Part shown: in pieces, positions 8,323 to 23,450 of the stretch
Numbering within the stretch: position 1 is the first letter of the stretch
How the letters are laid out: every line of letters starts with the position of its first letter
Assembly: GCF_937425535.1 (NCBI RefSeq)
Contig: NZ_OW485601.1
Location: 3,207,501 to 3,271,500, forward strand
Source: Rhodovastum atsumiense
Lineage (GTDB): Bacteria; Pseudomonadota; Alphaproteobacteria; Acetobacterales; Acetobacteraceae
Direction of reading: 5' to 3'
DNA length: 64,000 nucleotides
Notes under the pieces: model-generated
The model's input: the letters and a program-made list of their open reading frames with translations, nothing else
Database searches by the model: none
What the model was told of the DNA's origin: nothing
Translations under genes and position numbers: made by a program

Positions 8323-9435
8323 TCAGCCGGCCACCGCGACGAAGGCACCGTTCTTCACCATCGCCTTGGTCAGCTTCTTCGCCGGCTCGCGGTCGGGGCC
8401 GAAGGTGGTCTCGCCGGTGACGCCCGGATAGTTCTTCGTCTGCGCCAGCGCGTCGCGAACCTTCTCGCGCGTTGGATTGGGCCAGGCGCGCTCCAGGGCG
8501 GCGAGCATGATGCCGACGGCATCATAGGCCTGCGCGGGGAACTGGCCGGGCTCGGCCTGGCCGGTGCGGGCCTTCCAGGCGGCGACGAATTCCTGCACCT
8601 GCGGTTCCGGCGAATTGGGCAGGAAGGTCGCGGTCAGGCGCAGCCCCTCGGCATCGGCGCCGGCCAGCGCCAGCAATTGCTGGTTATAGGCGGCGGAGGT
8701 GGAGTGCACCGGGATGCCGATGCCAAGCTGCTTCATCTGCTTCAGGAACTGTGCCGCATCTTCATAGAAGAAGCCGGTGTAGACGACATCCGGCTTGCTG
8801 CGTGCGATCTTGGTGATGATCGGACGGAAATCCTGCAGGCCACGATTGAAGTATTCGGAAAACACCACTTCGCCGCCACGTGGCTTCAGCCCGTCGACGA
8901 AGCCGCTCACCACCGACTGGCCCCAGTCGGTCTGCTCGGAGATCACCGCGACGCGGCGGTGGCCCTCCGCAAGCAGCCACTCGGCGTTGTACGGCCCTTC
9001 CTGCGCCTGGGTGGTGATGTTGCGGAACTGCCACTTCGAGATCTTCGTGTAGTCCGGGTGCGAGGCAGTCTGCGAGAGCTGCGCCATGCCGGCCTGAGCG
9101 TAGACCTGCCCGGATGCCATCGACACGCCCGAGGTGAAGTCGCCGAGCACCGCCAGAATTGTGCGGTCATCGACAAACTTGCGCGCGATCGCGACACCTT
9201 CGCGCGAATCCGAACGTGAATCCTCGTAGACGATTTCCACCCGGAACGGTTTGTCGGCGCGGTTGAAGCGGTCCAGCGCGATCTCGGCGGCGTTGCGGAA
9301 ATCCTGGCCGTACTGGGCGGTGCCGCCGGTCAGCGGCAACTGGTAGCCCAGCCGCAGCACCGGTTTGTCGGCGGCACGGGCGGGGCCGGCGAGCAGGGCG
9401 CCGGTGGCGAGCAACAGGCTGCGACGGTCGAGCAT
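8323..9435 (-). CDS. livK: periplasmic amino-acid-type binding protein (LivK/UrtA class)
   Basis: A 370-residue Peripla_BP_6 receptor. The signal sequence MLDRRSLLLATGALLAGPARA is followed by KPVLRLGYQLPLTGGTAQYG, the usual start of the mature fold; later landmarks are VLGDFTSGVSMA (ligand loop), QTDWGQS and the FPAQAYDAVGIMLAALE helix. An ATG at 9435 with AGGA about ten bases upstream gives a normal signal peptide; a longer start at 9456 is possible. It heads the transporter part of the operon, 92 bases after the ATC-hydrolase-like gene. Ligand unknown: this class also takes urea, short amides and aromatic acids. Confidence 0.88.
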   Translation of the reverse strand: MLDRRSLLLATGALLAGPARAADKPVLRLGYQLPLTGGTAQYGQDFRNAAEIALDRFNRADKPFRVEIVYEDSRSDSREGVAIARKFVDDRTILAVLGDFTSGVSMASGQVYAQAGMAQLSQTASHPDYTKISKWQFRNITTQAQEGPYNAEWLLAEGHRRVAVISEQTDWGQSVVSGFVDGLKPRGGEVVFSEYFNRGLQDFRPIITKIARSKPDVVYTGFFYEDAAQFLKQMKQLGIGIPVHSTSAAYNQQLLALAGADAEGLRLTATFLPNSPEPQVQEFVAAWKARTGQAEPGQFPAQAYDAVGIMLAALERAWPNPTREKVRDALAQTKNYPGVTGETTFGPDREPAKKLTKAMVKNGAFVAVAG

Positions 9436-9527
9436 CGGATCATTCCTGGATGGCATCGTGGAAGGCCCCCCGGGCCCCGGTCATGGTAGATGTCGGTTGC
9501 CCGCGGGGGATGCAAGGGCCGGGCCGC

Positions 9528-10049
9528 TCAGTCCTTGCCCGGCAGCACGCGCAGGGTGCAGCAGCCTTCGCGGCCGGGCTGCCAGGTCTCGCCGGCGAAG
9601 GTGAAGCCCGCCGCGGTGAACATGCCCTGGTCGATGGCGCCGGCGATCTCGCACAGGTCCTTCAGGTCGGCATCGCCGCAGCCTTCGGCCTGCCACGCTT
9701 CCTTCAGCGGGCAACGGTGGAAATGAATGGTCAGCTCGGCCTCGTCGCAGCGGCGCAGCTCCGGGGAGAACAGCGTCTCGCCCTCGATGATGCCGCCGAG
9801 GAAGTCGCGGCTCAGCCCGGCGAGGTCGGCGGGGCCGTGCCCGGCGAGGCCGGCCCCGGCCTTCTCGCCCATCTGCCGCGTGGCTTCCTTCATCAGCGTC
9901 ATGGCGCGCTCGCGGCCGAGTTCGGCGCGCAGCACCTCGAACATGCGGGCATAGAAGGCGGCGCGCATGGCGAAGGCACGGCGCAGCAGGGCGTGCACCT
10001 CGGTGGCGGCCATGGTGGTTTGGGTGGGCATCGTCGGTTCCTTGGGCAT
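9528..10049 (-). CDS. L-2-amino-thiazoline-4-carboxylic acid hydrolase-like protein
   Basis: A 173-residue soluble protein that I assign, with moderate confidence, to the ATC-hydrolase family, in which a ring-opening hydrolase converts 2-amino-thiazoline carboxylate towards cysteine. What is visible: a helical N-terminal half (LRRAFAMRAAFYARMFEVL), then ELTIHFHRCPLKEAW, whose CPL motif is characteristic, and a C-terminal CCTLRV. The ATG at 10049 overlaps the stop of the FAD oxidoreductase (TGATG), so the two are co-translated; a second ATG at 10031 has a better AAGGAA site. Position between an amine oxidase and a liv importer suggests a catabolic role. The real substrate is unproven. Confidence 0.6.
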   Translation of the reverse strand: MPKEPTMPTQTTMAATEVHALLRRAFAMRAAFYARMFEVLRAELGRERAMTLMKEATRQMGEKAGAGLAGHGPADLAGLSRDFLGGIIEGETLFSPELRRCDEAELTIHFHRCPLKEAWQAEGCGDADLKDLCEIAGAIDQGMFTAAGFTFAGETWQPGREGCCTLRVLPGKD

Positions 10050-11356
10050 CAGGCGATCTCCCTGGCATCGCGCCAGCGATATTCCAGCAGCTTCAGCGGC
10101 GCGACGCGACGCAGCAGCCCGTGCAGCGGCAGCGGCGTGGGCGGGCCGAAGGGCAGCGCCACCTGTTCGGTGCCGGTGCCGCCGGCGAGGCGGGCGAATT
10201 CGCGGCCGATGGCGATGGCCAGCGACACCGCGCGGCCGTTGCAGCCGGTCCAGCCCCAGGCATCGGGGCCGAGTTCGTGGAAGCGCGGGGCGTAATCGGG
10301 CGTCATGCCGATATAGCCGTTCCAGACATAATCGAAGCGCACCGTGCCGAGCTGCGGCCAGATGCGGGCGAGCCGGGTGGCGATGCGCGCCTGCAGCCGT
10401 TCCACGGCGTTCACCGGCAGGATCAGCGCGCCGCCGGTCACCAGCCGGTCGCGCGCGTCCCAGCGGGCGAAATACAGGTCGCCATGCGTGTCCGACATCG
10501 CCTGCCGGCCGGGGATCACGGTGCGGCGCAGCACCGGATCGACCGGCGCGGTCGCCATCTGCCAGGAATGCACCGGCACCACCTCGCGCGCCACCGCGGG
10601 CGCCAGGGCGGGGGCGAGCTCGCCGGTATAGGCGTTGCTTGCCAGCACCAGCGCGCGCGCCCGCACCGTGCCGCGGGCGCCGCGGACGATCCAGTTGCCC
10701 TCGACGCGATCGAAGCCGAGCACCGGCGAGCGGACGCAGATGCGCCCGCCCCGGCCGAGCACCGCGGCGGCGAGGCCGCGCGCCAGCGCCAGCGGGTTGA
10801 TGTGCCCGCCGCTGCGGTTCCAGAAGCCGCCGTGCCAGTAGCCGCTGCCCATCATGTTGCGCATCTGCATGCGATCGAGCAGCTCGACCGGCGCGCCCCA
10901 GCGCTCCCACTGGCGCACGCGCGTTTCCGCGATGCGCATCCGCCCGGGCGAGTGCGCGGGCTGCACCCAGCCGGTCTGCTCGGCCTCGGCGGCGATGTCG
11001 CAGCGGCGCACCGTCTCGAACAGCAGGTCGGCCGAGCCGCCGAGCATGGCGGCGAAACGTTCCCCGGCGCCGCCGTAGCGCGCCACCAGGTCGTCCGGGT
11101 TCATCCGGGTGAGGGTGGGGATCACCTGGCCGTTGTTGCGGCCGGAGGCGCCCCAGCCGGGTGCCATGGCCTCGACCACCAGCACGTCGGTGCCGGCCTC
11201 GGCTAGGTGCAGGGCGGTGGACAGGCCGGTGAAGCCGGCGCCGATCACGACGACGTCGGCGCGTTGCTCGCCCTCGAGCACCGGCAGGTCGGGCGCGGAC
11301 GGGGTGACCGCCGCCCAGAGCGAGGGCGGCCAGGGAACGGGATCGGTCTGGGGCAT
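10049..11356 (-). CDS. FAD-dependent amine/amino-acid oxidoreductase (DAO family, PuuB-like)
   Basis: A 435-residue flavoprotein. The Rossmann dinucleotide motif VVVIGAGFTGLSTALHLAEAG sits near residue 35, preceded by a WPPSLW segment typical of gamma-glutamylputrescine oxidase-type enzymes; GASGRNNGQV follows, and the C-terminal WGWTGCNGRAVSLAIAIG closes the FAD site. Such enzymes deaminate amines or D-/N-methyl amino acids with release of ammonia. It is the first gene of a seven-gene reverse operon ending in livF. The start at 11356 gives a normal-length enzyme and leaves a 137-base divergent gap to hldD. Confidence 0.83.
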   Translation of the reverse strand: MPQTDPVPWPPSLWAAVTPSAPDLPVLEGEQRADVVVIGAGFTGLSTALHLAEAGTDVLVVEAMAPGWGASGRNNGQVIPTLTRMNPDDLVARYGGAGERFAAMLGGSADLLFETVRRCDIAAEAEQTGWVQPAHSPGRMRIAETRVRQWERWGAPVELLDRMQMRNMMGSGYWHGGFWNRSGGHINPLALARGLAAAVLGRGGRICVRSPVLGFDRVEGNWIVRGARGTVRARALVLASNAYTGELAPALAPAVAREVVPVHSWQMATAPVDPVLRRTVIPGRQAMSDTHGDLYFARWDARDRLVTGGALILPVNAVERLQARIATRLARIWPQLGTVRFDYVWNGYIGMTPDYAPRFHELGPDAWGWTGCNGRAVSLAIAIGREFARLAGGTGTEQVALPFGPPTPLPLHGLLRRVAPLKLLEYRWRDAREIA

Positions 11357-11493
11357 ATCCGGGTGTACTCTGTGCTGCCTCGCAACACTGCGCCAGGACG
11401 GCGCCGAGGAAAAGCGGCCAGATGCGCGCGACCCCGCCGCCGTCATCTCATCATGCTTGCGGGCGGCGGGGGGATTGTCCTACTCCGGCAGGC

Positions 11494-12468
11494 ATGATCC
11501 TGATCACTGGCGGCGCCGGCTTCATCGGTTCGAATCTGCATGCAGCGCTGGCTGCGCGGGGCCACGAGACGATCGTGGTCGATCGCCTGCGCAGCGACGG
11601 CAAGTGGCACAACCTCGCGCACCATCCGCCGACCGCGATTGTCGCGCCGGAAGAGCTGCAGAATTTCCTCGCCCTGCAGCCGCCGATCGAGATGGTGTTC
11701 CATCTCGGCGCGATCAGCGCCACCACGGCGACCGATGGCGACCTGGTCTGGCACACCAATGTCGGCCTGTCGCAGGAGCTGTGGAAATGGTGTTCCTCGC
11801 TCGGGGTGCGGATGATCTACGCCTCCTCGGCGGCGACCTACGGGGCCGGCGCACAGGGCTTCGAGGATGGGCTGGACGATCTTGGCAATTTGCGTCCGCT
11901 CAATCTTTACGGCTGGTCCAAGCACGCCTTCGACCTGAGCGTGGCGCGCGCCGTGGCCGGGCGGCGCAAGCGGCCGCCGCAATGGGTGGGCCTGAAATTC
12001 TTCAACGTCTACGGGCCGAACGAGTACCACAAGGGATCGCAGGTCTCGGTGGTGAAGGTGAAATACGACGAGGTGCGGCGCGGCCAGGCGCCGCGGCTGT
12101 TCCGCAGCGACCGGCCCGATGTCGCGGATGGCGAGCAGAAGCGCGACTTCATCTGGGTCGGCGATGTCGTGGACGTGCTGCTCTGGCTGCAGGACACGCC
12201 GGGCGTGAGCGGGCTGTTCAATGTCGGCACCGGCCAGGCGCGCAGCTATCGCGACCTCGCCCACGCGGTCTGCCGCGCGGGTGGGGCGAAGGAAGACATC
12301 GAGTTCATCGACATGCCGGCCAATCTGCGCGGCCAGTACCAGTCCTTCACCGAGGCGCGCATGGATCGCCTGCGCGCGGCCGGCTACACGAAGCCCTTCA
12401 CCTCGCTTGAAGACGGCATCAACCGCTATATCACCGAGTATCTGGCGATGCCGGATCCCTACGTCTGA
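11494..12468 (+). CDS. hldD: ADP-L-glycero-D-manno-heptose 6-epimerase
   Basis: A 324-residue extended SDR epimerase that makes ADP-L-glycero-beta-D-manno-heptose for the lipopolysaccharide inner core. N-terminal NADP-binding GGAGFIG (6-12), active-site YASSAATYG (109-117) and the catalytic pair Tyr139/Lys143 in LYGWSKHAFD are visible, together with LKFFNVYGPNEYHKGSQVSV, which is specific for this epimerase. The ATG at 11494 begins immediately with the Rossmann strand. It transcribes divergently from the amine-oxidase operon and converges on the ABC-ATPase gene, with a strong hairpin between the two stops. Its pathway partner hldE lies 6 kb away beyond the metal module. Confidence 0.95.
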   Translation: MILITGGAGFIGSNLHAALAARGHETIVVDRLRSDGKWHNLAHHPPTAIVAPEELQNFLALQPPIEMVFHLGAISATTATDGDLVWHTNVGLSQELWKWCSSLGVRMIYASSAATYGAGAQGFEDGLDDLGNLRPLNLYGWSKHAFDLSVARAVAGRRKRPPQWVGLKFFNVYGPNEYHKGSQVSVVKVKYDEVRRGQAPRLFRSDRPDVADGEQKRDFIWVGDVVDVLLWLQDTPGVSGLFNVGTGQARSYRDLAHAVCRAGGAKEDIEFIDMPANLRGQYQSFTEARMDRLRAAGYTKPFTSLEDGINRYITEYLAMPDPYV

Positions 12469-12474
12469 TTGCGG

Positions 12475-12501
12475 GCGCCGCCGCGATGGCCGCGGCGGCG
12501 C
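12475..12501. terminator. bidirectional hairpin between hldD and the ABC-ATPase gene
   Basis: A perfect 11-bp stem, GCGCCGCCGCG (12475-12485) with its complement at 12491-12501 and a five-base loop, fills the 40-base gap between convergent stop codons. No T tract follows, so it may work as a bidirectional block rather than a classic intrinsic terminator. Confidence 0.6.
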
Positions 12502-12508
12502 ACCGGAT

Positions 12509-13480
12509 TCAGGTTTGCTGCCAGGCGGGCAGCAGCGTCTCGCCGCGTCGCACCGCATCACGCAGCCTCGCGAGGCGGTGGTCATGCGCCTGCAACTCGG
12601 CCTGCAGCGCCTGCTCTTCGGGCGAGGTCGCGACCACCGCGGCGATGCCGCCGTTGCGGATGATCACGCGCCGCGCGCCCGACAGCGCCAGCAGCGGATC
12701 ATGGGTCGACAGCAGCACGATCTTGCCCCGGCTGGTGAACAGGCGCAGCGCCTGCCGGCGATCCACCCCGGCATTCTCGATCTCGTCGATCAGCACCACC
12801 GGCTTCGCGCTCAGCAGGGCGGCATCGGCGATCATCAGCGCGCGGGACTGGCCGCCGCTCAGCTGCGTCAGCGGCGTGGCGGCGGTGAACGGCTCGCCGG
12901 CCATGGCGATGGCGGCGTCCAGCACGGTCCGCGCCGCCGCCCGTGGATCAGCGACGCCACAGCTTTCGGCGTGCAGGGACAGGAAGTCCTCGACGTGCAG
13001 GTCCAGCACGAAATTCATGTTCTGGGAGATCTGCGCCACCAGCCGCGCCTCGGCCGAGACGCGCATGCGCGGGGCAGGGGTCGCGCCGTTGACCCGCACC
13101 ACCCGGCGACTCGGCGTGTCGCCCTGGGCGAGGCATTCGATGTCGGCCAGCAGACGGCTTTTGCCCGAGCCGGTCGGGCCGACGATGGCCACCACCTCGC
13201 CCGGCCGCAGGCAGAGCGGGACCGCTTCCGGCTGTCCGTCCTTGTCGCAGCCTTGCGTCACCTCCAGGCATTCCAGCGTGATGCCGCCGCCGGCAGGGCG
13301 CGCGGCCAGGAAGGCGCGCAACTGCTCCTGCAGGGCCGCCAGGGTCCAGCCGCCTCCGTCCCTGACCTCCCAGGGGAGCGATTGCCAGTAGTCCTGCAGC
13401 GAACACGCGGCCGCCGGCACGGGCAGGCCGTGCCGGCGCAGGAAGTCCGTGTCCACCGTCATGGTCGCGGCGCCGGTCAT
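12509..13480 (-). CDS. soluble ABC-type ATPase of unknown function (metal module)
   Basis: A 323-residue protein with a full ABC nucleotide-binding domain: Walker A GPTGSGKS (101-108), signature LSGGQ (207-211), Walker B VVLIDE (228-233) and switch His260 in LLSTHD. It is preceded by about 85 residues unlike a transporter subunit (helical, with WQSLPWEVRDGGGWTL). After Walker B the sequence reads IDEIENAGVDRR instead of the usual DEPTSALD, so the catalytic Glu is present but the D-loop is unusual. No permease gene is near. Start overlaps the GTPase stop (ATGA). It may energise cofactor or protein remodelling, by analogy with soluble ABC ATPases such as component A2, but that is inference. Confidence 0.75.
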   Translation of the reverse strand: MTGAATMTVDTDFLRRHGLPVPAAACSLQDYWQSLPWEVRDGGGWTLAALQEQLRAFLAARPAGGGITLECLEVTQGCDKDGQPEAVPLCLRPGEVVAIVGPTGSGKSRLLADIECLAQGDTPSRRVVRVNGATPAPRMRVSAEARLVAQISQNMNFVLDLHVEDFLSLHAESCGVADPRAAARTVLDAAIAMAGEPFTAATPLTQLSGGQSRALMIADAALLSAKPVVLIDEIENAGVDRRQALRLFTSRGKIVLLSTHDPLLALSGARRVIIRNGGIAAVVATSPEEQALQAELQAHDHRLARLRDAVRRGETLLPAWQQT

Positions 13481-14175
13481 GGTTCCTGCTCCTCGATGCG
13501 CATCCGGCGGATCACGCCGTGCTGGAACTCCGCGCCGATGCGGGTCTGGCCGAAGCAGTAGGAACAGACCGCGGCGGGCACGGAGAAACGCAGGCGCCCG
13601 CCGGTCAGCGCCGCTTCCTCCGGCGCGTCCCGCCACAGCATGGCGACTTCCCGGCATCCCTGGCCGGTGATGCCGTTGGCGAACAGGATCTCGGCGCGCG
13701 CGTTCACCTGGCGGATGCGGAAGGCGAAGACGTCGCGCTCGGCCTGGCTGACGATGTCGCCCTTCGTCACCACCACCAGGTCGGCGGTGCGCAGCATCGG
13801 CCCGACCTTGCGCGGGGTGTCGATGCCCGAGAGGTTGTCCAGCACGCACATCGCCAGGAAGCCGCGCAGATGCGGCGCGCAGCGGTTGCACAATCCCGCC
13901 GTCTCGCTCACCAGCAGGTCGAGTCCCTGGCGCGCGCCCCAGGCGGCGCAGGCCTCGACATTGGTGACAAAATAATGGTCCGGGCAGGTGTTGCCGGAAA
14001 TCCCGGTCAGCACCGGGATGCCCTCGGCCTCATAGGCCGCCGCATCCAGGCTGGTCAGGCAATCGAACTTCACCACCCCGGTCCGCAGCCCCGCCGCGCG
14101 CAGATGCCGCAGCGCCCGCAGGATGACCGAGGTCTTGCCCGACGAAGGCGGGCCGGCGACCGTCACCAGCTTCAT
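13477..14175 (-). CDS. HypB/UreG-like P-loop GTPase with cysteine pairs (metal module)
   Basis: A 232-residue G3E/SIMIBI-class nucleotide-binding protein. P-loop GPPSSGKTS (8-16), a Walker-B-like DLLVSETAG (86-94) and the base-recognition TKGD (137-140) are all visible. It also has potential metal ligands: Cys64 in GNTCPDHYF, Cys96-x2-Cys99 in GLCNRCAPH, Cys110, and Cys204-x2-Cys207 in AVCSYCFG. HypB, UreG and CobW proteins use such folds to hand nickel, zinc or cobalt to client enzymes. Stop overlaps the start of the ABC ATPase, and its start overlaps the preceding gene's stop, so the three are tightly coupled. Metal and client are unknown. Confidence 0.75.
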   Translation of the reverse strand: MKLVTVAGPPSSGKTSVILRALRHLRAAGLRTGVVKFDCLTSLDAAAYEAEGIPVLTGISGNTCPDHYFVTNVEACAAWGARQGLDLLVSETAGLCNRCAPHLRGFLAMCVLDNLSGIDTPRKVGPMLRTADLVVVTKGDIVSQAERDVFAFRIRQVNARAEILFANGITGQGCREVAMLWRDAPEEAALTGGRLRFSVPAAVCSYCFGQTRIGAEFQHGVIRRMRIEEQEP

Positions 14176-15185
14176 CGTTTCAGATCCATGCCAAGGGCGC
14201 CCCGCGCCAGCGCGGCGTCGCAGAGCGGGTGCAATCCGGGAAAATCGAGGCCGCGGGCGTGCGACCAGCCCAGCCAGCGCAAGGGGCCGGGCAGGGGGGC
14301 GCCGCCGCTGTCGTCACGGTTGCTGGCGCAGCCCGCGCTTTCCATCCGGCCGGCCCAGTCCCGGCCGGTCAGCAACGCATGCGCAAGCCGCGCCGCCGGC
14401 GGGGCGTCGTGCCGGCGCAGCAGCAGCAACGGCACCGCGTAGGCCCCCTCGCGCGGCCAGACCAGGGCCACGCGGTCGCGATGGATGTTGTTGAGCGCCC
14501 AGAAATACGGAAGGATCGCCAGCGCGGCGCCCTCCGGATCGCCGGAACCCAGGTTGCGCGCCATCTGCGCACCGCCGCGGAATCCCCACATGTTCGCGCC
14601 CAGCGCCTGCAGCCCGTCCAGGCCGAAATCGACGAACAGGTTGAACAGCAGCACGCCCGCGAGCCGCCCGTCGCTGCCGTTGGCAACGATGTCGCCGCGG
14701 TACTGCGGCGAGAGCAGGTCCTCCCAGCCTTGCGGCACCGGGCGCCCGCGCAGACGGGCGCGGTCGGCCAGGATTACCCAGGGACCGGCGCCGTACACCT
14801 CGCAAACCCCGAGCGGATCGGCGAGCCCCGCCGCGGCGAGATCGGGACGCAGCGCCGGCTGCGGTCGCGGCTGGTAGAGCCCGGCCTGCTGCCAGCGCGT
14901 GGTGAAGCCGGGCCGCGTGAAGCGGCCGAGCCCGGCATCGGAGAGCAGGCCGGGCAACCAGTCCGCATCCTCGGTCTCGTGCACCCAGGCGCAGTCCGGG
15001 CTGTCCAGGCTGGCCGGCACGTACCAGGCGGCGGTCAGGCCGCTGCGGCGCCGCTCCCGTTCGAAGCCTTCATGCAAATGCTGGCGCACCATCCGGCGCA
15101 GCGGCGGGAACACATGGCCGAAATAGTCCAGGCGCCGCCGCGGCCCGCCTTCCTCCTCCGGGAAGGCCGGTTCGTCGCCGCTCAT
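14172..15185 (-). CDS. periplasmic-binding-protein-fold protein lacking a signal peptide (metal module)
   Basis: A 337-residue protein resembling type-2 ABC binding proteins for Fe(III) or polyamines: PQGWEDLLSPQYRGDIVANG, the FFRGGAQM-like GFRGGAQMARNLGSGDPEGA and VALVWPREGAYAVPLLLL correspond to hinge and ligand-cleft segments of that fold. Oddly, the N-terminus is acidic/charged (MSGDEPAFPEEEGGPRRR) with no hydrophobic leader, and the only good start, ATG at 15185, overlaps the upstream stop by four bases. It therefore probably stays in the cytoplasm, where it could bind a metal complex for the GTPase and ATPase encoded next. An unseen frameshift removing a signal peptide is possible, but upstream is occupied by the preceding gene. 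Confidence 0.65.
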   Translation of the reverse strand: MSGDEPAFPEEEGGPRRRLDYFGHVFPPLRRMVRQHLHEGFERERRRSGLTAAWYVPASLDSPDCAWVHETEDADWLPGLLSDAGLGRFTRPGFTTRWQQAGLYQPRPQPALRPDLAAAGLADPLGVCEVYGAGPWVILADRARLRGRPVPQGWEDLLSPQYRGDIVANGSDGRLAGVLLFNLFVDFGLDGLQALGANMWGFRGGAQMARNLGSGDPEGAALAILPYFWALNNIHRDRVALVWPREGAYAVPLLLLRRHDAPPAARLAHALLTGRDWAGRMESAGCASNRDDSGGAPLPGPLRWLGWSHARGLDFPGLHPLCDAALARGALGMDLKR

Positions 15186-16225
15186 GGCGCGGCGGTGCCG
15201 GCGAACAGCAGGTGCAGGTCGGCATCGGTCAGGGCGACGCCGAAGAACAGACGGAAGAACGCCCGCGTTTCCGCTGGCAGATCGATCCTGTACCGATCCG
15301 GGTGCAACCGGCCCGCCAGCCATTGCACCCCCATGATCCGCATGTAGGAGGGCGGCCGGTCCATCCAGTTGAACGGCAGCGACGGCACCACCAGCACGCG
15401 CCGGCTGCGCACCGCCGCGAGCGTCTGCCAGCGTGGTTCCGTCAGGAACATCGTGGCGGTGCGGGGGAAGCGCACCAGGATGACGTCCGGGTCCAGCAGC
15501 AGCACCGTCTCCGCGGTCATCGTGGCGGTGGCGGCGAAGCTGTTGGCGGCCGCGCAGTGCAGCACGTTGCGCCCGCCGGCCAGCCCGATCACCTCGGCCC
15601 GGGCGGAGCCGTCGCACTGGCTCTGCAGCCCGTCGGGGGATTCGGCGTAGTAGACACGCGGCCGCTGCCCGTCCGGCAGGTCGCGCAGCGCGGCGGCGAC
15701 GCGGGCGCCGGTTTCTTCCAGATAGCGTGCCAGTGCCTCGCCGCGTTCTGGCCTTTGCAGCACCGCGCCGAGGAAGCGGAAGGTCGCCGGGTACTGCTCC
15801 AGCCGCTCGGCCGCCACCGCCACCGCCGGCCTGCCGAGCCGGGCCATGGTGGCGCGCACCTGCTCCGACAGCCCGGTGCCGTCCAGCACCACGCCGAGGT
15901 CGATGCCGGCCGCCATCAACTGTTCAGGGTTCGTGGTCTGGATGCCGCTGACCGACAGCCGCGGCAGCGCGGCGAAGCCGGGCGGCAGGAAGCGGGCGAG
16001 GTCCGGCGTGGTGTCGAAATAGCTGCCCGCCAGCAGGTCGGGGGCGATCGCCGCCATGATCGCCACGGCGGAGGAGAACGCCCCGTACACGCGGTGGATG
16101 TCGGCCGGCAGCGTGATCGTCCGTCCGCTCATGTCCACCACCTCGCGCGCCCGGGCGGGGGACGCGGCCAGCAGCAGCGCGGCCGCGAACAGGGTGGCGC
16201 GGGCGATCCGGCGCAGGATCATCAT
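15182..16225 (-). CDS. periplasmic binding protein for siderophore/haem/cobalamin-type ligand
   Basis: A 347-residue class III binding protein (Peripla_BP_2). The leader LRRIARATLFAAALLLAASPARA is a clear signal peptide; the mature part starts EVVDMSGRTITLPADIHRVYG, the standard opening of FepB/BtuF/HmuT proteins, and later has DPDVILV and MRIMGVQWLAGRLHPD. Two N-terminal ATGs (16225, 16222) are both usable. It lies 15 bases after the TonB receptor gene and overlaps the next gene by four bases. No FecCD-type permease follows, so delivery across the inner membrane must use another system or a different route. Confidence 0.85.
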   Translation of the reverse strand: MMILRRIARATLFAAALLLAASPARAREVVDMSGRTITLPADIHRVYGAFSSAVAIMAAIAPDLLAGSYFDTTPDLARFLPPGFAALPRLSVSGIQTTNPEQLMAAGIDLGVVLDGTGLSEQVRATMARLGRPAVAVAAERLEQYPATFRFLGAVLQRPERGEALARYLEETGARVAAALRDLPDGQRPRVYYAESPDGLQSQCDGSARAEVIGLAGGRNVLHCAAANSFAATATMTAETVLLLDPDVILVRFPRTATMFLTEPRWQTLAAVRSRRVLVVPSLPFNWMDRPPSYMRIMGVQWLAGRLHPDRYRIDLPAETRAFFRLFFGVALTDADLHLLFAGTAAP

Positions 16226-16240
16226 CTTTCCCCCTCCTCC

Positions 16241-18415
16241 TCAGAACCGGACCTGCAGCGCCGCCCAGACGGTGCGCGGCGCGCCGAGGAAGGCACTGGC
16301 ATTGCCGGCATTGGTGCCGTTGATGCTGCTCGGGAACACCGACACCCAGTAGCGCTCGTCGAACAGGTTCTTCACCCCGAGTCGCCAGGTCACGTCCCGG
16401 CCCCAGAGATCGGTCGCGTAGCGGGCGCCGAGATCGAGCGTGGTGTAGGCGTCCGCCCAGGTGGTGTTGGTGTCGTTGGCGGCGCGCCGGCCGGTGTGGT
16501 GGAGGTTCATCTCCAGCGCGAGCCCCGGCAGCGCCGGCACCCGGTATTCGGTGTAGAGATTGGCCTGGATGCGCGGCACGCCGACCACCAGCTTGCCGCT
16601 GGTCGCGGGGCTCACGGTGTCGGTCAGTTCCGGGTCGAGCAGGGTGACGCCGCCGAACACCGTCAGGTCCTCGACCGGGTTGCCCTTGGCCGAAAGCTCC
16701 AGCCCGTAATTGACCTGGGTGCCCTGTTCGCGGAACACGTTGTCGCTGCCGGTATAGGCGAAGGGGCGGGTCATGCGGAACAACGCCGCCGCCAGGTCCA
16801 CCGCGGCCATGCGGGCCTTCCAGCCCAGTTCGAACTGCTCGCTGCGATAGGGCGGCAGGATCTCGCCGGCATTGGCGACGCCGGAGGTGGGCGCGGTGTC
16901 GCCTTTCTGCAGGCTGTCGGCATAGGTGAAGTACAGCATCATGTCCGGCAGCGGCCGGAACATCAGGCTGGCGGTGGGGCTGATTCCGTTCTGGTGATAG
17001 CCCGAGGTCTTCGTTCCGCTGGTGTCCCAGCTCGCCCCTTGCAGCCAGTCCTGGCTGAACGCGGCCAGCACCGACCAGCGCTCGGTGAAGGTGATGGTGT
17101 CGCCGGCGATCAGGCTGAACTGGCGGTTCTGGCCGGAGCGGTATTTCGGTCCCACATCCAGCCAGGCCGGCGGGTTGAACACGGTGGGGGCGTACAGGCT
17201 GGCGCTGCCCAGGGTGTAGCTGCGGGTATAGCGTGGCGTGAACTGGGTCTGCTGGAAGCCGTTGCTGCCCAGCATCAGGTCATGCGTGAGCCCGAGCCCG
17301 CGCACCCGCCCGTTCAGGTAGAGCAGCATGCTGTCCACCGTGGTGGTGCCGGACATGTTGGTGCTGATGGAAGATGTGTAGGTCCTGGCGTTGCTCGCGA
17401 GCGTGTTGGTGACGCCATACAGGATGCGGGTCGCTTCCTGGTGCAGCCCCCCCCCGGTCACCGACCAGTCGTCGGAGAAGCTGTGGCGCAGGCGGGTGCT
17501 GACGATGTTGGTCTCCAGCTGCTGGCCGGCGAAGCTCTGGCCATAGCCGACCTTCGTAGGATCGAGTGCGGCGGGCAGGGGCGTGGTCTGGCTGTAGGAG
17601 AACGATCCGGGATAGCCGTTGGCGATCTGCAGGTAATGGCTGGCGTTCAGCTCCAGCGTGGTGGCATCGGAGACGTGCAGGTCGAAATTGCCGCTGACCA
17701 TCTCGCGGCGAAGGTGACTGCCGCCGACATAGCCGGTGCCATCGGCGATCAGGCCGTTCAGGCGGTAGCCGAACCGGGCGACCTGCCCGCCGACATCGGT
17801 GTGCACGGTGCCGATGCCGGCGCTGTCGAAGCCCAGGGACAGCTTGCGCAACGGCTCCTCGGTTGGCCGCTTGAGGATGTAGTTGAAGGTGCCGGCCGGG
17901 GCGGCCGGCCCATAGAGCGCCCCCGACAGCCCCTGCAGCAGTTCCACTGCCTCCAGTTGTTCCATCGGATAGGCGGTGACGCCGAACACGTTCAGCCCGT
18001 CCATGCGGGTGTTCTGGACGATGTCGCCCTGGAAGCCACGGCTCTGCGGCCGTCCGACATCCAGCCCGCCGCGTGCCTCGATCTGGGCGGAGGGGAAATA
18101 GCGGATGGCCTCGCTGAGCGTGCGTGCGCCCACCGCTTCCATCATCGGGCTGGAGATGTCCTGGATCGAATAAGGCGTTTCCAGTTTCGGCCGGTTGCCC
18201 AGCGGGCCGAGATCGACGCGGGCCCGGCGATAGCCGTCCCCGGCGCCGCCGCTCGCTTCCCGCGGCGGCGCCGAGACCACGACCGGATCCACCCAGGTTT
18301 CTTGGCCCGGCGCGTCGGCGCCCTGGGCCAGAGCGCTGCCACTGCCCAGCAGCCAGGCAGCCAGCGCCGCACCAGGGGATGTGATCCGAGTTGAGAATGA
18401 AGAAACGGCCATCAT
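16241..18415 (-). CDS. TonB-dependent outer-membrane receptor (siderophore/metal complex)
   Basis: A 724-residue receptor. Signal peptide (MAVSSFSTRITSPGAALAAWLLGSGSALAQ), then a plug domain with TPYSIQDISSPMM and a TonB-type N-terminal VVVSAPPRE, then AAPAGTFNYILKRPT (typical of siderophore receptors), and a 22-strand barrel ending in the required C-terminal aromatic ALQVRF. Start at 18415 or the adjacent ATG at 18412; the GTG at 18433 is less likely. A small hairpin (arms TCCGCAC, 18427-18444) lies just upstream. It is the first gene of the permease-less metal module and sits 146 bases downstream of hldE. Iron-responsive control is likely but I find no sure Fur box. Confidence 0.9.
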   Translation of the reverse strand: MMAVSSFSTRITSPGAALAAWLLGSGSALAQGADAPGQETWVDPVVVSAPPREASGGAGDGYRRARVDLGPLGNRPKLETPYSIQDISSPMMEAVGARTLSEAIRYFPSAQIEARGGLDVGRPQSRGFQGDIVQNTRMDGLNVFGVTAYPMEQLEAVELLQGLSGALYGPAAPAGTFNYILKRPTEEPLRKLSLGFDSAGIGTVHTDVGGQVARFGYRLNGLIADGTGYVGGSHLRREMVSGNFDLHVSDATTLELNASHYLQIANGYPGSFSYSQTTPLPAALDPTKVGYGQSFAGQQLETNIVSTRLRHSFSDDWSVTGGGLHQEATRILYGVTNTLASNARTYTSSISTNMSGTTTVDSMLLYLNGRVRGLGLTHDLMLGSNGFQQTQFTPRYTRSYTLGSASLYAPTVFNPPAWLDVGPKYRSGQNRQFSLIAGDTITFTERWSVLAAFSQDWLQGASWDTSGTKTSGYHQNGISPTASLMFRPLPDMMLYFTYADSLQKGDTAPTSGVANAGEILPPYRSEQFELGWKARMAAVDLAAALFRMTRPFAYTGSDNVFREQGTQVNYGLELSAKGNPVEDLTVFGGVTLLDPELTDTVSPATSGKLVVGVPRIQANLYTEYRVPALPGLALEMNLHHTGRRAANDTNTTWADAYTTLDLGARYATDLWGRDVTWRLGVKNLFDERYWVSVFPSSINGTNAGNASAFLGAPRTVWAALQVRF

Positions 18416-18561
18416 GTTCCCACCGCTCCGCACGCGAGTGCGGACGAGTGCTTCAGGAACGGCTCAGGCCGTGATCGGACCGGCGCGGCGGATCGGCGCG
18501 CGCTGTCAGTGTGTCGTCGGAACGTTAATCATCCGGCGGCGGTGATTCAAGCGCCCCTGGA

Positions 18562-20016
18562 TCAGCCCGTCGGCTCCCCCGCCATCCGCTGCACCAGGCG
18601 CGTCGTCGATTGCCCTTCTTCAAGCGTCGCCAGGATGACGCGCCCGCCAGCCGCCTGCACCACATCCGCGCCGACGACGGTGTCGATGGTGTAGTCTGCA
18701 CCTTTCACCAGCACGTCCGGCTGCAGCGCCTCGATGACGGCAAGCGGCGTGTCCTGCTCGAACAGCAGCACGAGGTCCACCGGGCGCAGCGCGCCGATCA
18801 CGCGGGCGCGGGCCGCCTCGGTCTGCAGCGGTCGCGACGGCCCCTTCAGCCGGTGCACCGAGGCATCGCTGTTGAGTGCCACGATCAGCCGGTCGCAGGC
18901 GGCGGCGGCCTGTTCGAGCAGCGAGATATGGCCGGGATGCAACAGGTCGAAGCAGCCATTGGTGAAGCCGACCACCAGCCCCTGCCGCCGCCATGCCTCG
19001 CGCTGGCGGATCGCGTCGGCCAGGGCGACGACCCCGGGCGGGGGCATGCGGCGCGGATGCGCGGCACGGTCGAGCGCCGCCTGCAGCTCGGCGCGCGTGA
19101 CCACGGCGGTGCCGATCTTGCCGACGACGATGCCGGCGGTCTCGTTGGCCAGGCGCATGGCCTCGGCCATGGGCAGGCCGGCGGCGATGCCGAGGGCGAG
19201 CGTGGCCACCACGGTGTCGCCGGCACCGGAGACGTCGAACACCTCGCGCGCAGCGGTGGGCAGGTGGATCGGCGGCGTGCCCGGGGCGAAATAGGACATG
19301 CCGAGTTCCGAGCGTGTCAGCAGCACGGCGGCATTGGTGATCGCGATCATGGCGGCGGCGGCACGCTCGGCCTCGGCGTCGGTGTCGCAGGGCAGGCCGG
19401 TCGCCTCGGTGAGCTCGCGGCGATTGGGGGTGATCAGGTCGGCGCCGGCATAGACGGCAACGTCGCGCCGCTTGGGATCGACCAGCACCGGGCAGCCGGC
19501 GGCGCGCGCCGCGGCGATGGCGGCATGCAGCACCGCATCGGCGCAGACGCCCTTGCCGTAATCGGAGATCACCATGACCTGCGCCCAGCGCGCCGCCGCC
19601 TGCACCGCGGCGATCAGTGCCTCGCGCGGCGCGGTATCGAGCGGGCGGTTGTCCTCGCGGTCGATGCGGACGAACTGGTGGTGGCCGGAGGCGACGCGGG
19701 TCTTGGTGATGGTGGGGCGCGAGGGATCGGTCACCAACCCCGAAGTATCGACCACCCCGAGCCCGGCAAGCAGGTCGCATACCATGTGCGCTTCGGCATC
19801 GGCACCGACGATGCCGACCAGGCGCACGCAGCCGCCGAGGGCGGCAAGATTGGCGGCGACATTGGCCGCGCCGCCGGCGGCGCGCCGCTCCGAGGCCGGA
19901 CGCATCACCGCGACCGGGGCTTCGGGGGAAATGCGGGTGGCGTGGCCATCGATGTGGACATCCAGCATCACGTCGCCGACGACGGCGATGCGGCATGCTG
20001 CGAAATCGAGTCTCAC
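18562..20016 (-). CDS. hldE: bifunctional heptose-7-phosphate kinase / heptose-1-phosphate adenylyltransferase
   Basis: A 484-residue two-domain enzyme making ADP-D-glycero-beta-D-manno-heptose for lipopolysaccharide. Residues 1 to about 310 are a PfkB-type kinase (VVGDVMLDVHIDGHATRISPEAP, GGAANVAANLAALGG, and DVSGAGDTVVATLA with the catalytic Asp). Residues from about 340 form a cytidylyltransferase-like domain with TNGCFDLLHPGHISLLEQA (HxGH motif) and RLKGPSRPLQ. I chose GTG at 20016 because GGAGG lies six bases upstream; a GTG at 20031 is an alternative. It follows icd on the same strand, separated by mosaic repeat copy B, and precedes the TonB receptor. The HldD partner is at 11494. Confidence 0.95.
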   Translation of the reverse strand: MRLDFAACRIAVVGDVMLDVHIDGHATRISPEAPVAVMRPASERRAAGGAANVAANLAALGGCVRLVGIVGADAEAHMVCDLLAGLGVVDTSGLVTDPSRPTITKTRVASGHHQFVRIDREDNRPLDTAPREALIAAVQAAARWAQVMVISDYGKGVCADAVLHAAIAAARAAGCPVLVDPKRRDVAVYAGADLITPNRRELTEATGLPCDTDAEAERAAAAMIAITNAAVLLTRSELGMSYFAPGTPPIHLPTAAREVFDVSGAGDTVVATLALGIAAGLPMAEAMRLANETAGIVVGKIGTAVVTRAELQAALDRAAHPRRMPPPGVVALADAIRQREAWRRQGLVVGFTNGCFDLLHPGHISLLEQAAAACDRLIVALNSDASVHRLKGPSRPLQTEAARARVIGALRPVDLVLLFEQDTPLAVIEALQPDVLVKGADYTIDTVVGADVVQAAGGRVILATLEEGQSTTRLVQRMAGEPTG

Positions 20017-20080
20017 GACGGCCTCCGGCACTGCTGCTGCGCAAATCCTATGGTACGAGGCGCAGCCTCACGCAAGTGTG

Positions 20081-20230
20081 GCGGGGCGTTGCCCCGCGCC
20101 CTACCAGGAGGCTTCGCCTCCTGGACCTCCACCAAGGGCTTCGCCCTTGGAACCCGATTTTCTGTGCCGCGCAGCGCTTTTGGGGTGCAGGGGCCTTGTG
20201 GCCCCTGCCGGGTCGAGGGCAGAGCCCTCG
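20081..20230 (+). repeat. five-hairpin mosaic repeat, full copy B
   Basis: Same length and hairpin order as copy A, directly beyond the icd stop codon. H1-H3 are identical to copy A. H4 has arms GCAGGGGCC/GGCCCCTGC (20187-20208) where copy A has CCAAGGGCC/GGCCCTTGG. H5 is CGAGGGC-AGA-GCCCTCG (20214-20230) where copy A has CCAGGGC/GCCCTGG. Both arms changed together, so pairing is kept. Confidence 0.9.
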
Positions 20231-20237
20231 TCTTCCT

Positions 20238-21452
20238 TCAGGCCATCGCCTTCTTCAGATTCTCGTCGATCTTGCCAAGGAAGTCCTGGGTATTCAGCCA
20301 GGGCTGGTCGCGACTGATCAGGATCGCGAGGTCCTTGGTCATGAATCCGCTTTCCACCGTTTCGACGCAGACGCGTTCGAGCGTATCGGCGAAGGCGGTC
20401 ACGTCCGGGGTGCCATCGAACTGTCCCCGATAGGCCAGGCCGCGGGTCCAGGCGAAGATCGAGGCGATCGGGTTGGTGCTGGTCTCGCGGCCCTTCTGGT
20501 GCTCGCGGTAGTGGCGGGTGACGGTGCCGTGCGCCGCCTCGCTTTCGACGGTCTGGCCGTCCGGGCTCATCAGCACCGAGGTCATCAGGCCGAGCGAGCC
20601 GAAGCCCTGGGCCACGGTGTCGCTCTGCACGTCGCCGTCGTAATTCTTGCAGGCCCACACATAACCGCCGCTCCATTTGAGCGAGGAGGCGACCATGTCG
20701 TCGATCAGGCGGTGCTCGTAGGTCAGGCCGGCGGCCTCGAACTTCTCGCGGAACTCGCGGTCGTAGATCTCCTGGAACACATCCTTGAACATGCCGTCAT
20801 AGGCCTTGAGGATGGTGTTCTTGGTGGAAAGGTAGACCGGGTAGTTGCGCAGCAGGCCATAGTTGAAGCTGGCGCGGGCGAAACCCTCGATCGAGGCGCG
20901 GGTGTTGTGCATCCCCAGGATCACGCCCGGCCCCTTGAAGTCGTGCACCTCCAGTACCTGCGGTGGGCCGCCGTCGGCGGGCTGGTAGGTGAGGCTCACC
21001 CGGCCGGGGCCGGGGATCTTGGTCTCGGTGGCGCGGTAGATGTCGCCGTAGGCATGGCGGCCGATGACGATCGGCTGGGTCCAGTGCGGCACCAGCCGCG
21101 GCACGTTGCTGCAGATGATCGGCTCGCGGAAGATGGTGCCGTCGAGGATGTTGCGGATGGTGCCGTTCGGGCTGCGCCACATCTTCTTGAGCCCGAACTC
21201 GGCGACGCGGGCCTCGTCGGGGGTGATGGTGGCGCATTTCACGCCGACGCCATATTGCTTGATGGCGTTGGCGGCATCGACGGTGACCTGGTCGTCGGTC
21301 TGGTCGCGGTGCTCAATACCTAAATCGTAATACTTAAGATCGATATCAAGATAAGGGAGAATTAGCTTGTCCTTGATGAAGCCCCAGATGATCCTGGTCA
21401 TTTCGTCCCCGTCGAGTTCGACGACCGGGGTCTTCACCTTGATTTTCGCCAT
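20238..21452 (-). CDS. icd: NADP-dependent isocitrate dehydrogenase
   Basis: A 404-residue homodimer-type (eukaryote-like) isocitrate dehydrogenase of the TCA cycle, oxidatively decarboxylating isocitrate to 2-oxoglutarate with NADPH production. The opening [17 protein letters not shown], the substrate-binding KSPNGTIRN equivalent ([20 protein letters not shown]), [20 protein letters not shown] and [23 protein letters not shown] are diagnostic. The ATG at 21452 is preceded by AGGGCGGA and gives the usual length. Monocistronic; mosaic repeat copy B follows its stop within eight bases and probably ends transcription. Divergent from the nucleoside deoxyribosyltransferase gene. Confidence 0.97.
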
Positions 21453-21601
21453 TCCGCCCTCTTGAATTTGCCCGGCTGCCCAGTGCAGCCCCGTCTTTGG
21501 CGCAACGCGCGCTTCTGCCACCCCGTCCGCGCCCGCACAAGGCCCGGCGCGGTGGCAGCCGGCGCTTCCCCCAGAGGCCGTTCCCGGGCAGGCTCGACCC
21601 C

Positions 21602-22177
21602 ATGCGCGTCTATCTCGCCGGACCTGATGTCTTCATGCCCGACCCGCTCGACCGCGCCGCCGCCCTCAAGGCAGTGTGCCGGCGGCATGGGCTGACCGGT
21701 GTCTCGCCGCTCGATGCCCTGGCCGACGAACCGTCCGACTGGGCCGCCCTGGCCGAGGCGCGGCGGATTGCCCTGCGCAACGAGGCGCATATCCGCTCCT
21801 GCGTTGCCCTGATCGCCAATCTCACGCCCTTCCGCGGCCCGAGCGCCGATGCCGGCACGGTGTTCGAGGTCGGGTTCATGCGCGCGCTCGGCCGCCCGGT
21901 CTTCGGCTGGTCGAACGACCCGCGCCTGTTCGCCGATCGCACCCAGGCCTTTCTCAACGGTTTCGCCCGCTGCACCGAGGCAGGCTGGCGCGACGGGGAG
22001 GATATGCTGCTCGAGGATTTCGCCCTGCGCGACAACCTGATGATCGACGGGGCGGTGCTGGCCTCGGGCGGGGCGCTGTTCGTGGCCGATCCGCCCGCGC
22101 AGGGGCGCTGGTCGGACCTGTCCGCCTTCGAAGCCTGCGTGGCCGCCCTGGCGACCGCGCTGGGGCAGCGGGGATAG
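21602..22177 (+). CDS. nucleoside 2-deoxyribosyltransferase family protein
   Basis: A 191-residue cytosolic enzyme that exchanges bases on 2'-deoxyribonucleosides or hydrolyses the glycosidic bond of (deoxy)nucleotides. It starts [15 protein letters not shown] (the family's GPxVF loop), has a conserved acidic region [13 protein letters not shown], and the catalytic Glu lies in [18 protein letters not shown]. The C-terminal [13 protein letters not shown] is also typical. The ATG at 21602 begins exactly with the first strand. Role is probably nucleotide salvage or clean-up; the gene stands alone and is followed by the GTAGGGCGGA palindrome. Confidence 0.85.
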
Positions 22178-22182
22178 CAGGC

Positions 22183-22258
22183 GTAGGGCGGACGCAGTCC
22201 GCCATCGCAAGCCTCCGCAAGCTGGCCGGCTGGCGTTGGCGGACTGCGTCCGCCCTAC
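22183..22258. repeat. GTAGGGCGGA palindromic repeat, copy 1
   Basis: Perfect 22-base inverted repeat (22183-22204 and 22237-22258), starting GTAGGGCGGACGCAGTCC, around a 32-base middle. It lies six bases after the deoxyribosyltransferase stop, between convergent genes. A second member with longer 31-base arms but a similar 32-base middle is at 33881-33974. Such elements resemble REP/MITE palindromes; it may also terminate transcription. Confidence 0.85.
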
Positions 22259-22289
22259 ATCACTGCATCACGCCATCACTGGCGGTGGA

Positions 22290-23450
22290 TCAGATGCCGG
22301 GTTCCTCGGTCGCCGTCGTCCGGGGGGCCAGCGGCCCGAGGGCGGCGGCGATGCCGAAGGCGCCGGGCAGGCCGCCCTTGGGGAACAGTCGCGTCACATG
22401 CCCCATCTTCCGGCCTGGGCGGGCTTCCACCTTGCCGTAGTGGTGCGGGATCAGCCCGGGGGTGGCGACGATCTCGGTCCAGAGCGCCATGTCGCCGGGA
22501 CCGATCAGGTTCTTCATCACCGCGTCCGAATGCCGCACCGCCGGCGGCAGCGGCAGGCCGGCGACGGCGCGGATATGCATCTCGAACTGGCTGGTCGGGC
22601 AGGCGTCGATGGTCCAGTGCCCGGAATTGTGCGGCCGCGGCGCGATCTCGTTGACCAGCACCCGGCCGTCGGCGGTGACGAACATCTCCACCGCGAGCAG
22701 CCCTATCAGGTCGAGCCCGTCGGCCACCCGCCGTGCCGTCGCCTGCGCCGCCTGGGCGATTCGCTCCGGGACGCGGGCGGGGGCGAGGGTGGTGTCGAGG
22801 ATGTGGTCGCGGTGGCTGTTTTCCACCGTGTCGAAGGCCGCCATGCTGCCGTCGGAGGCACGCGCCACCACCACGCTGATCTCGGCCGAGAAGTCGACGA
22901 AGCCTTCCAGGATCAGCGGCCGGGGCGAGAGCGCGGCGAAGGCGGGGGCGAGGTCGTCCGGCGTGCGCAGCAGCGCCTGACCCTTGCCGTCATAGCCCAG
23001 CCGGGCGGTCTTCAGCACCGCCGGCAGGCCGATGCGCGCGACCGCCTCCCGCAGTTCCTGCAGGCTGTCCACCGCCGCCCAGGGGGTGGTCTGCACGCCG
23101 ATGCTGTTGAGGAAGCTTTTCTCCGCCAGCCGGTACTGGCTGATGCGCAGCACCGCCGGGGCCGGTCGGACCGGTTTCAGCGCCGCCAGAAGGTCGAGTC
23201 CCTCGGCGCTGACGTTCTCGAACTCGAAGGTGATCACGTCGGCCGCGGCGGCGAAGGCGCGCAGCGCCACCGGGTCCTCGTACTCGCCGAGGGTGACGCC
23301 GGAGGCCACCTGTCCCGCCGGGCTGTTCGCCTCTGGCGTCAGCACGTGGCAGCGATAGCCGAGCCGCGCGGCCGCGAGTGCCGACATGCGGCCAAGCTGG
23401 CCGCCGCCGACGATGCCGATGGTGGAATTCGGCGGGAGCGCGGTGCTCAT
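22290..23450 (-). CDS. purK: 5-(carboxyamino)imidazole ribonucleotide synthase
   Basis: A 386-residue ATP-grasp enzyme of purine biosynthesis that carboxylates AIR to N5-CAIR. N-terminal [15 protein letters not shown]-grasp landmarks [14 protein letters not shown] and [16 protein letters not shown], and the metal/substrate segment [23 protein letters not shown] are clear. Start ATG at 23450 overlaps the purE stop by four bases, so the two enzymes of the N5-CAIR route are translationally coupled. It converges on the deoxyribosyltransferase gene. Confidence 0.97.

Follow-up and report, generated by a model that had tools for sequence, protein, structure and literature searches.

Among the closest described relatives of the genes reported here is the Azotobacter vinelandii operon Avin_02430-02410, whose products are labelled as a substrate-binding protein, a "nickel binding GTPase" and an ATP-binding cassette (ABC) ATPase, and which is followed by genes for a nitroreductase (Avin_02400) and a glutamate-cysteine ligase (Avin_02390). 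PMC9542535 describes the operon as VnfA1-dependent and of unknown function, and credits its conservation to Addo and Dos Santos 2020. We compared it with five genes of Rhodovastum atsumiense, which lie on the minus strand at 12509-18415 of a 64,000-nucleotide stretch (contig NZ_OW485601.1, positions 3,207,501 to 3,271,500; hereafter the window) and encode, in this order, a TonB-dependent receptor (TBDR), a periplasmic binding protein (PBP1), a second protein with a binding-protein fold (PBP2), a HypB/UreG-like GTPase and a soluble ABC ATPase. The last three genes are here called the trio. Trio order is the same in both organisms, and the GTPases are 57% identical when the A. vinelandii copy at 232 kb is taken as Avin_02420; the position, gene content and upstream VnfA1 motif of that copy match, and it fits the Avin_02430-02410 operon. 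That paper links Avin_02430-02410 to the vanadium (V) nitrogenase and places nitroreductase and ligase genes beside it, whereas the window trio belongs to another clade, is attached to a front end of TBDR and PBP1 and stands outside any nitrogenase cluster; no nitroreductase or ligase gene, a feature of the V-type trio family, was found downstream of it.

All five reading frames are open. The TBDR gene (16241-18415; 724 amino acids from an ATG, with an alternative GTG start at 18433) is separated by 15 bases from the PBP1 gene (15182-16225; 347 amino acids), and the genes for PBP1, PBP2 (14172-15185; 337 amino acids), GTPase (13477-14175; 232 amino acids) and ABC ATPase (12509-13480; 323 amino acids) are joined by ATGA overlaps of four bases at their three junctions. 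No permease gene adjoins the five genes or lies inside the operon. A first-pass annotation, made from the sequence alone, had described five reverse-strand genes in this order, four of them joined by four-base overlaps and with no permease, which we confirm; it had recognised no described system of such composition, a statement that the V-linked relative in PMC9542535 corrects. The parts of the module are of known kinds, and the V-type operon is already in print without a function. Besides PMC9542535, our literature search, judged mostly from titles and the beginnings of abstracts and extending mostly to papers outside subscription, yielded no recognisable treatment of the window-type trio, of its joining to a TonB and binding-protein front end or of a cross-phylum association with ModABC and nitrogenase genes; a passage search of the A. 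chroococcum genome paper (PMC4465626) gave none on the trio. Our analysis indicates that the association of the trio with molybdenum (Mo) or V and with nitrogenase is well supported, and that the five genes probably, though with appreciable room for doubt, form an accessory module that scavenges and handles the nitrogenase heterometal, most likely Mo, with V second.

To survey the trio, genome contigs were scanned with a query alignment that took in two V-type copies and a Fusobacterium GTPase. At least 494 confirmed GTPase relatives were obtained, and the best 80, which include several near-duplicates or metagenome-assembled genomes (MAGs) with short contigs, were kept as the loci (numbered L) of all counts out of 80 given here. 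Genes in the loci were called with a script based on open reading frames. Fifty trio genomes (searched genomes are numbered G) were picked from the 77 loci first listed, with long loci favoured. The three trio genes recur together in many phyla, Fusobacterium included, mostly in the order PBP2-GTPase-ABC, and a chance arrangement is therefore untenable; in the methanogen loci L078, L080 and L085, only the GTPase and ABC genes were recognised.

The neighbours of these loci point to molybdate transport. ModA was found in 22 of the 80 loci (in 20 of 84 when the best match had to be one of two ModA queries), and the unrelated Escherichia coli control queries BioB, UvrB and YbhK matched none of the 84. 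ModA occurs anywhere in the genome in 47 of the 50 trio genomes, and inside the fetched trio locus in 17 of them; random placement, given the number of ModA genes and the genome size, would give 0.40, and the maximum in 200,000 simulations of such placement was 5 genomes. The count becomes 15 of 50 if only the ModA queries from E. coli and Pseudothauera are used. Nitrogenase-type genes were detected by similarity in 10 of the 80 loci, those of L025 and L044 being NifB only, and ModA or nitrogenase-type genes in 27.

Several loci show this association in detail. On one Desulfuromonadaceae contig (L034/L118), TBDR-PBP1-PBP2-GTPase-ABC stand in the five-gene order of the window, and downstream on the same strand follow a second TBDR, a methyltransferase, a radical-SAM protein, one unidentified gene and then ModE-ModD-ModA-ModB-ModC-NifH-NifD-NifK. 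PBP2-GTPase-ABC is followed by ModE, ModABC, NifH and NifD in L057 and L040, with further genes, ModD among them, interposed in L040, and AnfD, AnfK and ModABC lie within the trio locus in L082 and L084. In Pseudothauera, a window-type PBP1-trio lies between ModABC and a TBDR-PBP-FecCD-FecE-MosA-(MosB)-vnf gene series.

The phylogeny of the GTPase was inferred from 88 rows with a quick method and no bootstrap, support being given by the Shimodaira-Hasegawa-like approximate likelihood ratio test (SH-aLRT). The window GTPase falls in a 12-row clade (SH-aLRT 100), hereafter window-type, with the A. vinelandii copy at 47 kb, the Pseudothauera C26 copy and nine Verrucomicrobiota rows; the GTPases of this clade are 69-77% identical to that of the window. 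It falls outside the V-type clade (SH-aLRT 94; L007, L011, L114, L115 and L117), in which G004 and G288 are represented by the only copy found in each, and R. atsumiense, A. vinelandii and Pseudothauera by their second copies. A helix-turn-helix (HTH) protein like those with PF12727 and a DUF364-like protein occur in four of the nine Verrucomicrobiota loci of the window-type clade, where three of the former (HTH-PF12727) and two of the latter (DUF364) were confirmed by Pfam; we take PF12727/COG1910 to be molybdate-related.

nifH scored above its cut-off in 40 of the 50 trio genomes and in nine of the ten searched window-type genomes; in the remaining one, G087, a NifN/NifK-like gene sits at the margin of locus L020. 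The background was measured in Verrucomicrobiota only, where seven of the eight window-type trio genomes carry nifH, compared with 31 of 387 in a sample of the phylum that includes one trio genome, G088 (Fisher p 3e-7, or 3e-6 once two near-identical rows are merged). Six of these eight have nifH above the cut-off and no vnfG match. For this reason Mo is favoured over V for the window copy.

The co-occurrence with vnfG concerns mostly the other clade. Among 80 relatives of R. atsumiense, the trio GTPase was found at 1e-20 in two genomes (R. atsumiense itself and G004), and among 398 genomes of its phylum at 1e-50 in two (R. atsumiense and G288); in both samples vnfG is above its cut-off in the same two. 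With R. atsumiense left out, Fisher p is 0.013 and 0.0025, respectively. Of the 50 trio genomes, 16 have vnfG-like matches, three of them above the cut-off. The three proteobacterial genomes in which a window-type trio was found (R. atsumiense, A. vinelandii and Pseudothauera) each have vnfG above the cut-off and a V-type trio as well.

The individual proteins are consistent with a metal-uptake front end followed by cytoplasmic handling. The TBDR has Plug and TonB barrel domains (Pfam) and is of the siderophore-receptor type (TIGR01783, 273 bits, cut-off 223.5). PBP1 belongs to Peripla_BP_2 (PF01497, 4.6e-8), and its matches in the PDB include 4pag (2e-60) and HI_1472 (3psa/3psh, 2e-9), which we take to be MolA. 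In the fold of PBP1 and in this match, a likeness of sequence only, the module resembles FecCD metal-chelate importers of the MolBCA/BtuCDF type. It differs from them in that the window module has neither a permease nor a FecE-type ATPase, and elsewhere the trio ATPase occurs alongside FecE.

Signal-peptide-like N-termini were judged from the hydropathy of the N-terminal region, which over the best 12 residues is 2.34 in PBP1, where such an N-terminus is present, and 0.32 in PBP2, where it is not. None of 20 PBP2 family members checked has such an N-terminus (-0.29 to 1.48, versus 2.28-2.96 in five PBP1s), and PBP2 is predicted to be a binding-protein fold located in the cytoplasm. It belongs to SBP_bac_6 (9e-43, Pfam), and its AlphaFold model (predicted local distance difference test, pLDDT, 93.3) has FutA/FbpA as its nearest solved folds in Foldseek. 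Most of 47 aligned PBP2s share a PCP motif; in the window, A. vinelandii 47-kb and Pseudothauera C26 copies its cysteine is replaced by proline, and the common His of the family (position 204 or 203-205) is missing. The PBP2 of many loci is extended at its N-terminus, and in three of them Pfam confirmed DUF1858 in the extension.

The GTPase shares its fold and nucleotide-binding domain with the metallochaperones HypB and UreG (cobW/HypB/UreG domain, 8e-12, above the gathering score; AlphaFold pLDDT 86.5, best Foldseek matches HypB and UreG). Unlike them, it scores below both equivalog cut-offs (HypB 43.9 versus 121.2 bits; UreG 30.9 versus 204.2 bits), has a binding protein and an ABC ATPase as partners and contains C64-P-D-H67, C96-x-x-C99 and C204-x-x-C207, invariant in 31 of 31 sequences, including the distant third paralogue of R. 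atsumiense described below. The ABC ATPase has an N-terminal extension and an ABC_tran domain (residues 87-233, 1e-14), and met no NCBIfam cut-off among the 25 families shown of 151. SufC and others are permease-less soluble ABC ATPases that likewise stand in a metal-cofactor context, a likeness not drawn from sequence comparison. None of the five proteins has a Pfam match to PF04891, the domain of NifQ, a known Mo donor for FeMo-co.

A second A. vinelandii operon, PBP1-PBP2-GTPase-ABC at 45-49 kb, is the orthologue of the window operon (identities 48, 45, 72 and 64%, respectively). The two share their gene order and have no adjacent FecCD permease; they differ in that no TBDR was found in the A. 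vinelandii locus, and in that a VnfA1-type control site is present there and none was seen at the window operon. Before the A. vinelandii PBP1 gene lie a sigma-54-like site, TGGCATCGGGGTTGCA, at 53 bp and a VnfA1 motif at 192 bp. In this locus (L018) the motif alone is close to chance, with two matches in 20.7 kb against about one by a rough estimate, and it owes its weight to its position and to the nearby sigma-54-like site. By linear interpolation of gene numbers, PBP1 would be gene 45.6 or 47.0, and the operon is on this basis probably Avin_00450 onward; one anchor, Avin_01300 as modA2, we infer from a ModA match at 128 kb and from the text of PMC9542535. According to that paper, VnfA1 activates Avin_00450 (class B) solely in the absence of both Mo and V.

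The R. atsumiense genome (7.42 Mb, 9 contigs) has three GTPase copies at 1e-20 or better and, judged from gene content, encodes Mo-, V- and Fe-only nitrogenases in nif, vnf and anf clusters. VnfD scores 966 bits (cut-off 823), AnfD 1085 (874) and NifD 852 (654), and VnfK narrowly misses its own cut-off (871 versus 874). The pattern agrees with that of Rhodopila globiformis, which has a V-nitrogenase besides its Mo-nitrogenase according to PMC8777916. NifQ (PF04891, 1e-51) is found in the nif cluster, and MosA, which reads intact, has an adjacent paralogue that we take as MosB. The second GTPase copy, 58% identical to that of the window, belongs to a cluster TBDR-FecCD-FecE-PBP-...-PBP2-GTPase-ABC that, unlike the window module, includes a FecCD permease, a further candidate permease in trans for that module. 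Its trio follows the vnf cluster: the TBDR-FecCD-FecE-PBP set comes after the last nitrogenase-family gene, PBP2 starts about 10 kb past that gene, and a VnfA1-type motif lies upstream of PBP2 (L007:7898). Upstream of this V-type trio, L007 6859-7881 encodes an ATP-grasp protein that weakly resembles D-Ala-D-Ala ligase, with a score under the Pfam cut-off; a similar one is found in G004 (L011 772-1920), where a nitroreductase gene follows the trio.

The third copy is a paralogous pair of GTPase (39% identical) and ABC ATPase (42%) at 7343-10725 of L008 (G000:C1:188000-207000), beside a NifS-like aminotransferase and a PF04060 Fe-S protein, with no PBP2 match in the locus. Its GTPase retains all six Cys/His motif residues. 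The context of this pair suggests a wider metal-cofactor role for the GTPase and ATPase.

We infer the identity of the metal, a permease acting in trans and each step of the hand-over as follows. Chelated metal would enter through the TonB receptor and be ferried by PBP1 through the periplasm, and a FecCD-type permease encoded elsewhere would carry it inward. Cytoplasmic PBP2 may then accept the metal or a metal complex, and the HypB-like GTPase and the soluble ABC ATPase could power its release and hand-over to storage (MosAB) or to cofactor assembly. One candidate permease in trans belongs to a separate set of Peripla_BP_2 protein, FecCD permease and FecE-type ATPase at 57003-59970 on the plus strand of the window, about 40 kb from the module.

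NifQ is named as a recognised Mo donor in PMC11605450. Many diazotrophs have no NifQ. As a tentative extension, which we think more likely wrong than right, the trio could act in the cytoplasm as a machine powered by nucleotides, one that mobilises Mo in its window-type form and V in its V-type form and either inserts the metal or passes it to nitrogenase cofactor assembly. It would be a nitrogenase counterpart of HypB and UreG and a second donor route, running alongside NifQ or taking its place in organisms that lack it, with duplication and divergence having fitted the two forms to their metals.

Several observations weigh against a role in supplying the nitrogenase heterometal. The window itself yielded no match to ModA, ModB or nitrogenase genes, and neither ModA nor nitrogenase genes were found in 53 of the 80 loci, many of which are short. 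nifH is below its cut-off or absent in 10 of the 50 trio genomes and ModA is missing at 1e-15 in three, G091 and G111 lacking both by these measures; most of the 50 have trios outside the subclade of the window. The vnfG co-occurrence rests mainly on the V-type copy, the sole kind found in G004 and G288. Upstream of the window operon there is no VnfA1 motif and no strict sigma-54 site, and control of it by VnfA1 and sigma-54 was rejected on this ground; the Avin_00450 identification is based on interpolated gene numbers and not on annotation. PBP1 is similar not only to HI_1472 but also to binding proteins for iron siderophores. Finally, Fusobacterium vincentii carries the trio, and we would expect no nitrogenase there; its presence there and in some genomes without nifH or ModA points to a family that reaches beyond nitrogenase. 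The Fusobacterium locus L010 (NZ_CP084075.1) was the sole match in a plasmid collection: a 2.1-Mb record filed as a plasmid in PLSDB, which looks like a chromosome from its size and from dnaK/dnaJ-like genes recognised by eye.

That the module serves V, as a second acquisition route for the V-nitrogenase, we regard as unlikely. It would suit the three proteobacterial genomes, in all of which the window-type trio is accompanied by vnfG and a V-type trio, and the position of the Pseudothauera copy in a vnf cluster; that same cluster, however, holds ModABC and MosA, and the Verrucomicrobiota with the same trio clade mostly have nifH without a vnfG match, together with the HTH-PF12727 regulators mentioned above. 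A ferric siderophore uptake operon, its additional cytoplasmic genes helping to release iron and its link to nitrogenase reflecting iron demand, would account for the type of the receptor, the likeness of PBP1 to siderophore-binding proteins and the fold of PBP2, which is closest to the ferric-binding FutA/FbpA. We consider it distinctly unlikely in view of the ModA enrichment and of the rarity of the GTPase in the phylum, and FbpA has a Tyr pair, whereas in the PBP2 alignment no tyrosine position reaches 75% conservation. Loading of the Mo storage protein is ATP-dependent, and MosA adjoins the Pseudothauera trio and is present in R. atsumiense; PBP2 might then sense molybdate in the cytoplasm, with the two NTPases filling or mobilising the storage protein, the trio being a sensor or storage regulator and not a feeder of the cofactor. 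This we hold to be improbable, MosA having been detected in one of 84 loci, a search that covered the loci and not the other trio genomes.

Insertion of nickel or cobalt, which the first-pass annotation had compared, would agree with a GTPase fold closest to HypB and UreG, and is in our view very improbable: the enriched neighbours found, in a survey that used no models made for hydrogenase, urease or cobalamin genes, are molybdate transporters and nitrogenase genes, and the HypB and UreG cut-offs are missed. The same annotation fared better in its likening of the GTPase to HypB and UreG, in its view of PBP2 as lacking a signal peptide and in the proposed sequence of metal-complex uptake and intracellular handling. 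The neighbourhood check it suggested finds the trio recurring often beside genes for molybdate transport and nitrogenase, and not always beside a FecCD-type permease, which is present in 23 of the 80 loci (10 of the 36 of at least 20 kb). Its suspicion that the ATPase is not simply the motor of an adjacent permease agrees with L067 and L015, in which a separate FecCD/FecE pair stands near the trio besides the trio ATPase. Because of these pairs and of the PBP2 family without signal-peptide-like N-termini, an ordinary ABC importer that has lost its permease was rejected as a full account. L067, from a MAG titled Deltaproteobacteria (Myxococcota in the tree labels), further encodes FmdE (3402-3998; PF02663, molybdenum formylmethanofuran dehydrogenase operon protein) near FecCD-FecE-trio-TBDR-PBP1-ModABC.

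Knowledge of how Mo and V, once taken up, reach the nitrogenase cofactor is incomplete. If the module does handle the nitrogenase heterometal, a three-protein cytoplasmic module conserved in diazotrophs of many phyla provides a short, testable gene list for the metal hand-over step, its paralogous forms tracking V-nitrogenase and, in Verrucomicrobiota, nifH without vnfG. The trio may also matter for moving nitrogen fixation into other hosts.

Beyond the ABC ATPase gene, a member of an epimerase family (Pfam) is encoded on the plus strand at 11422-12468. ARAGORN found no tRNA anywhere in the window, and Rfam, at gathering thresholds, gave no match in 9000-22500, on which riboswitch control of the module was rejected. 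Directly upstream of the TBDR ATG lies a perfect 7-bp inverted repeat, TCCGCAC-N4-GTGCGGA (18427-18444), which is the sole match in the window and was found in none of 100 shuffles, the pattern having been picked after the site was seen; it is a possible operator or leader hairpin.

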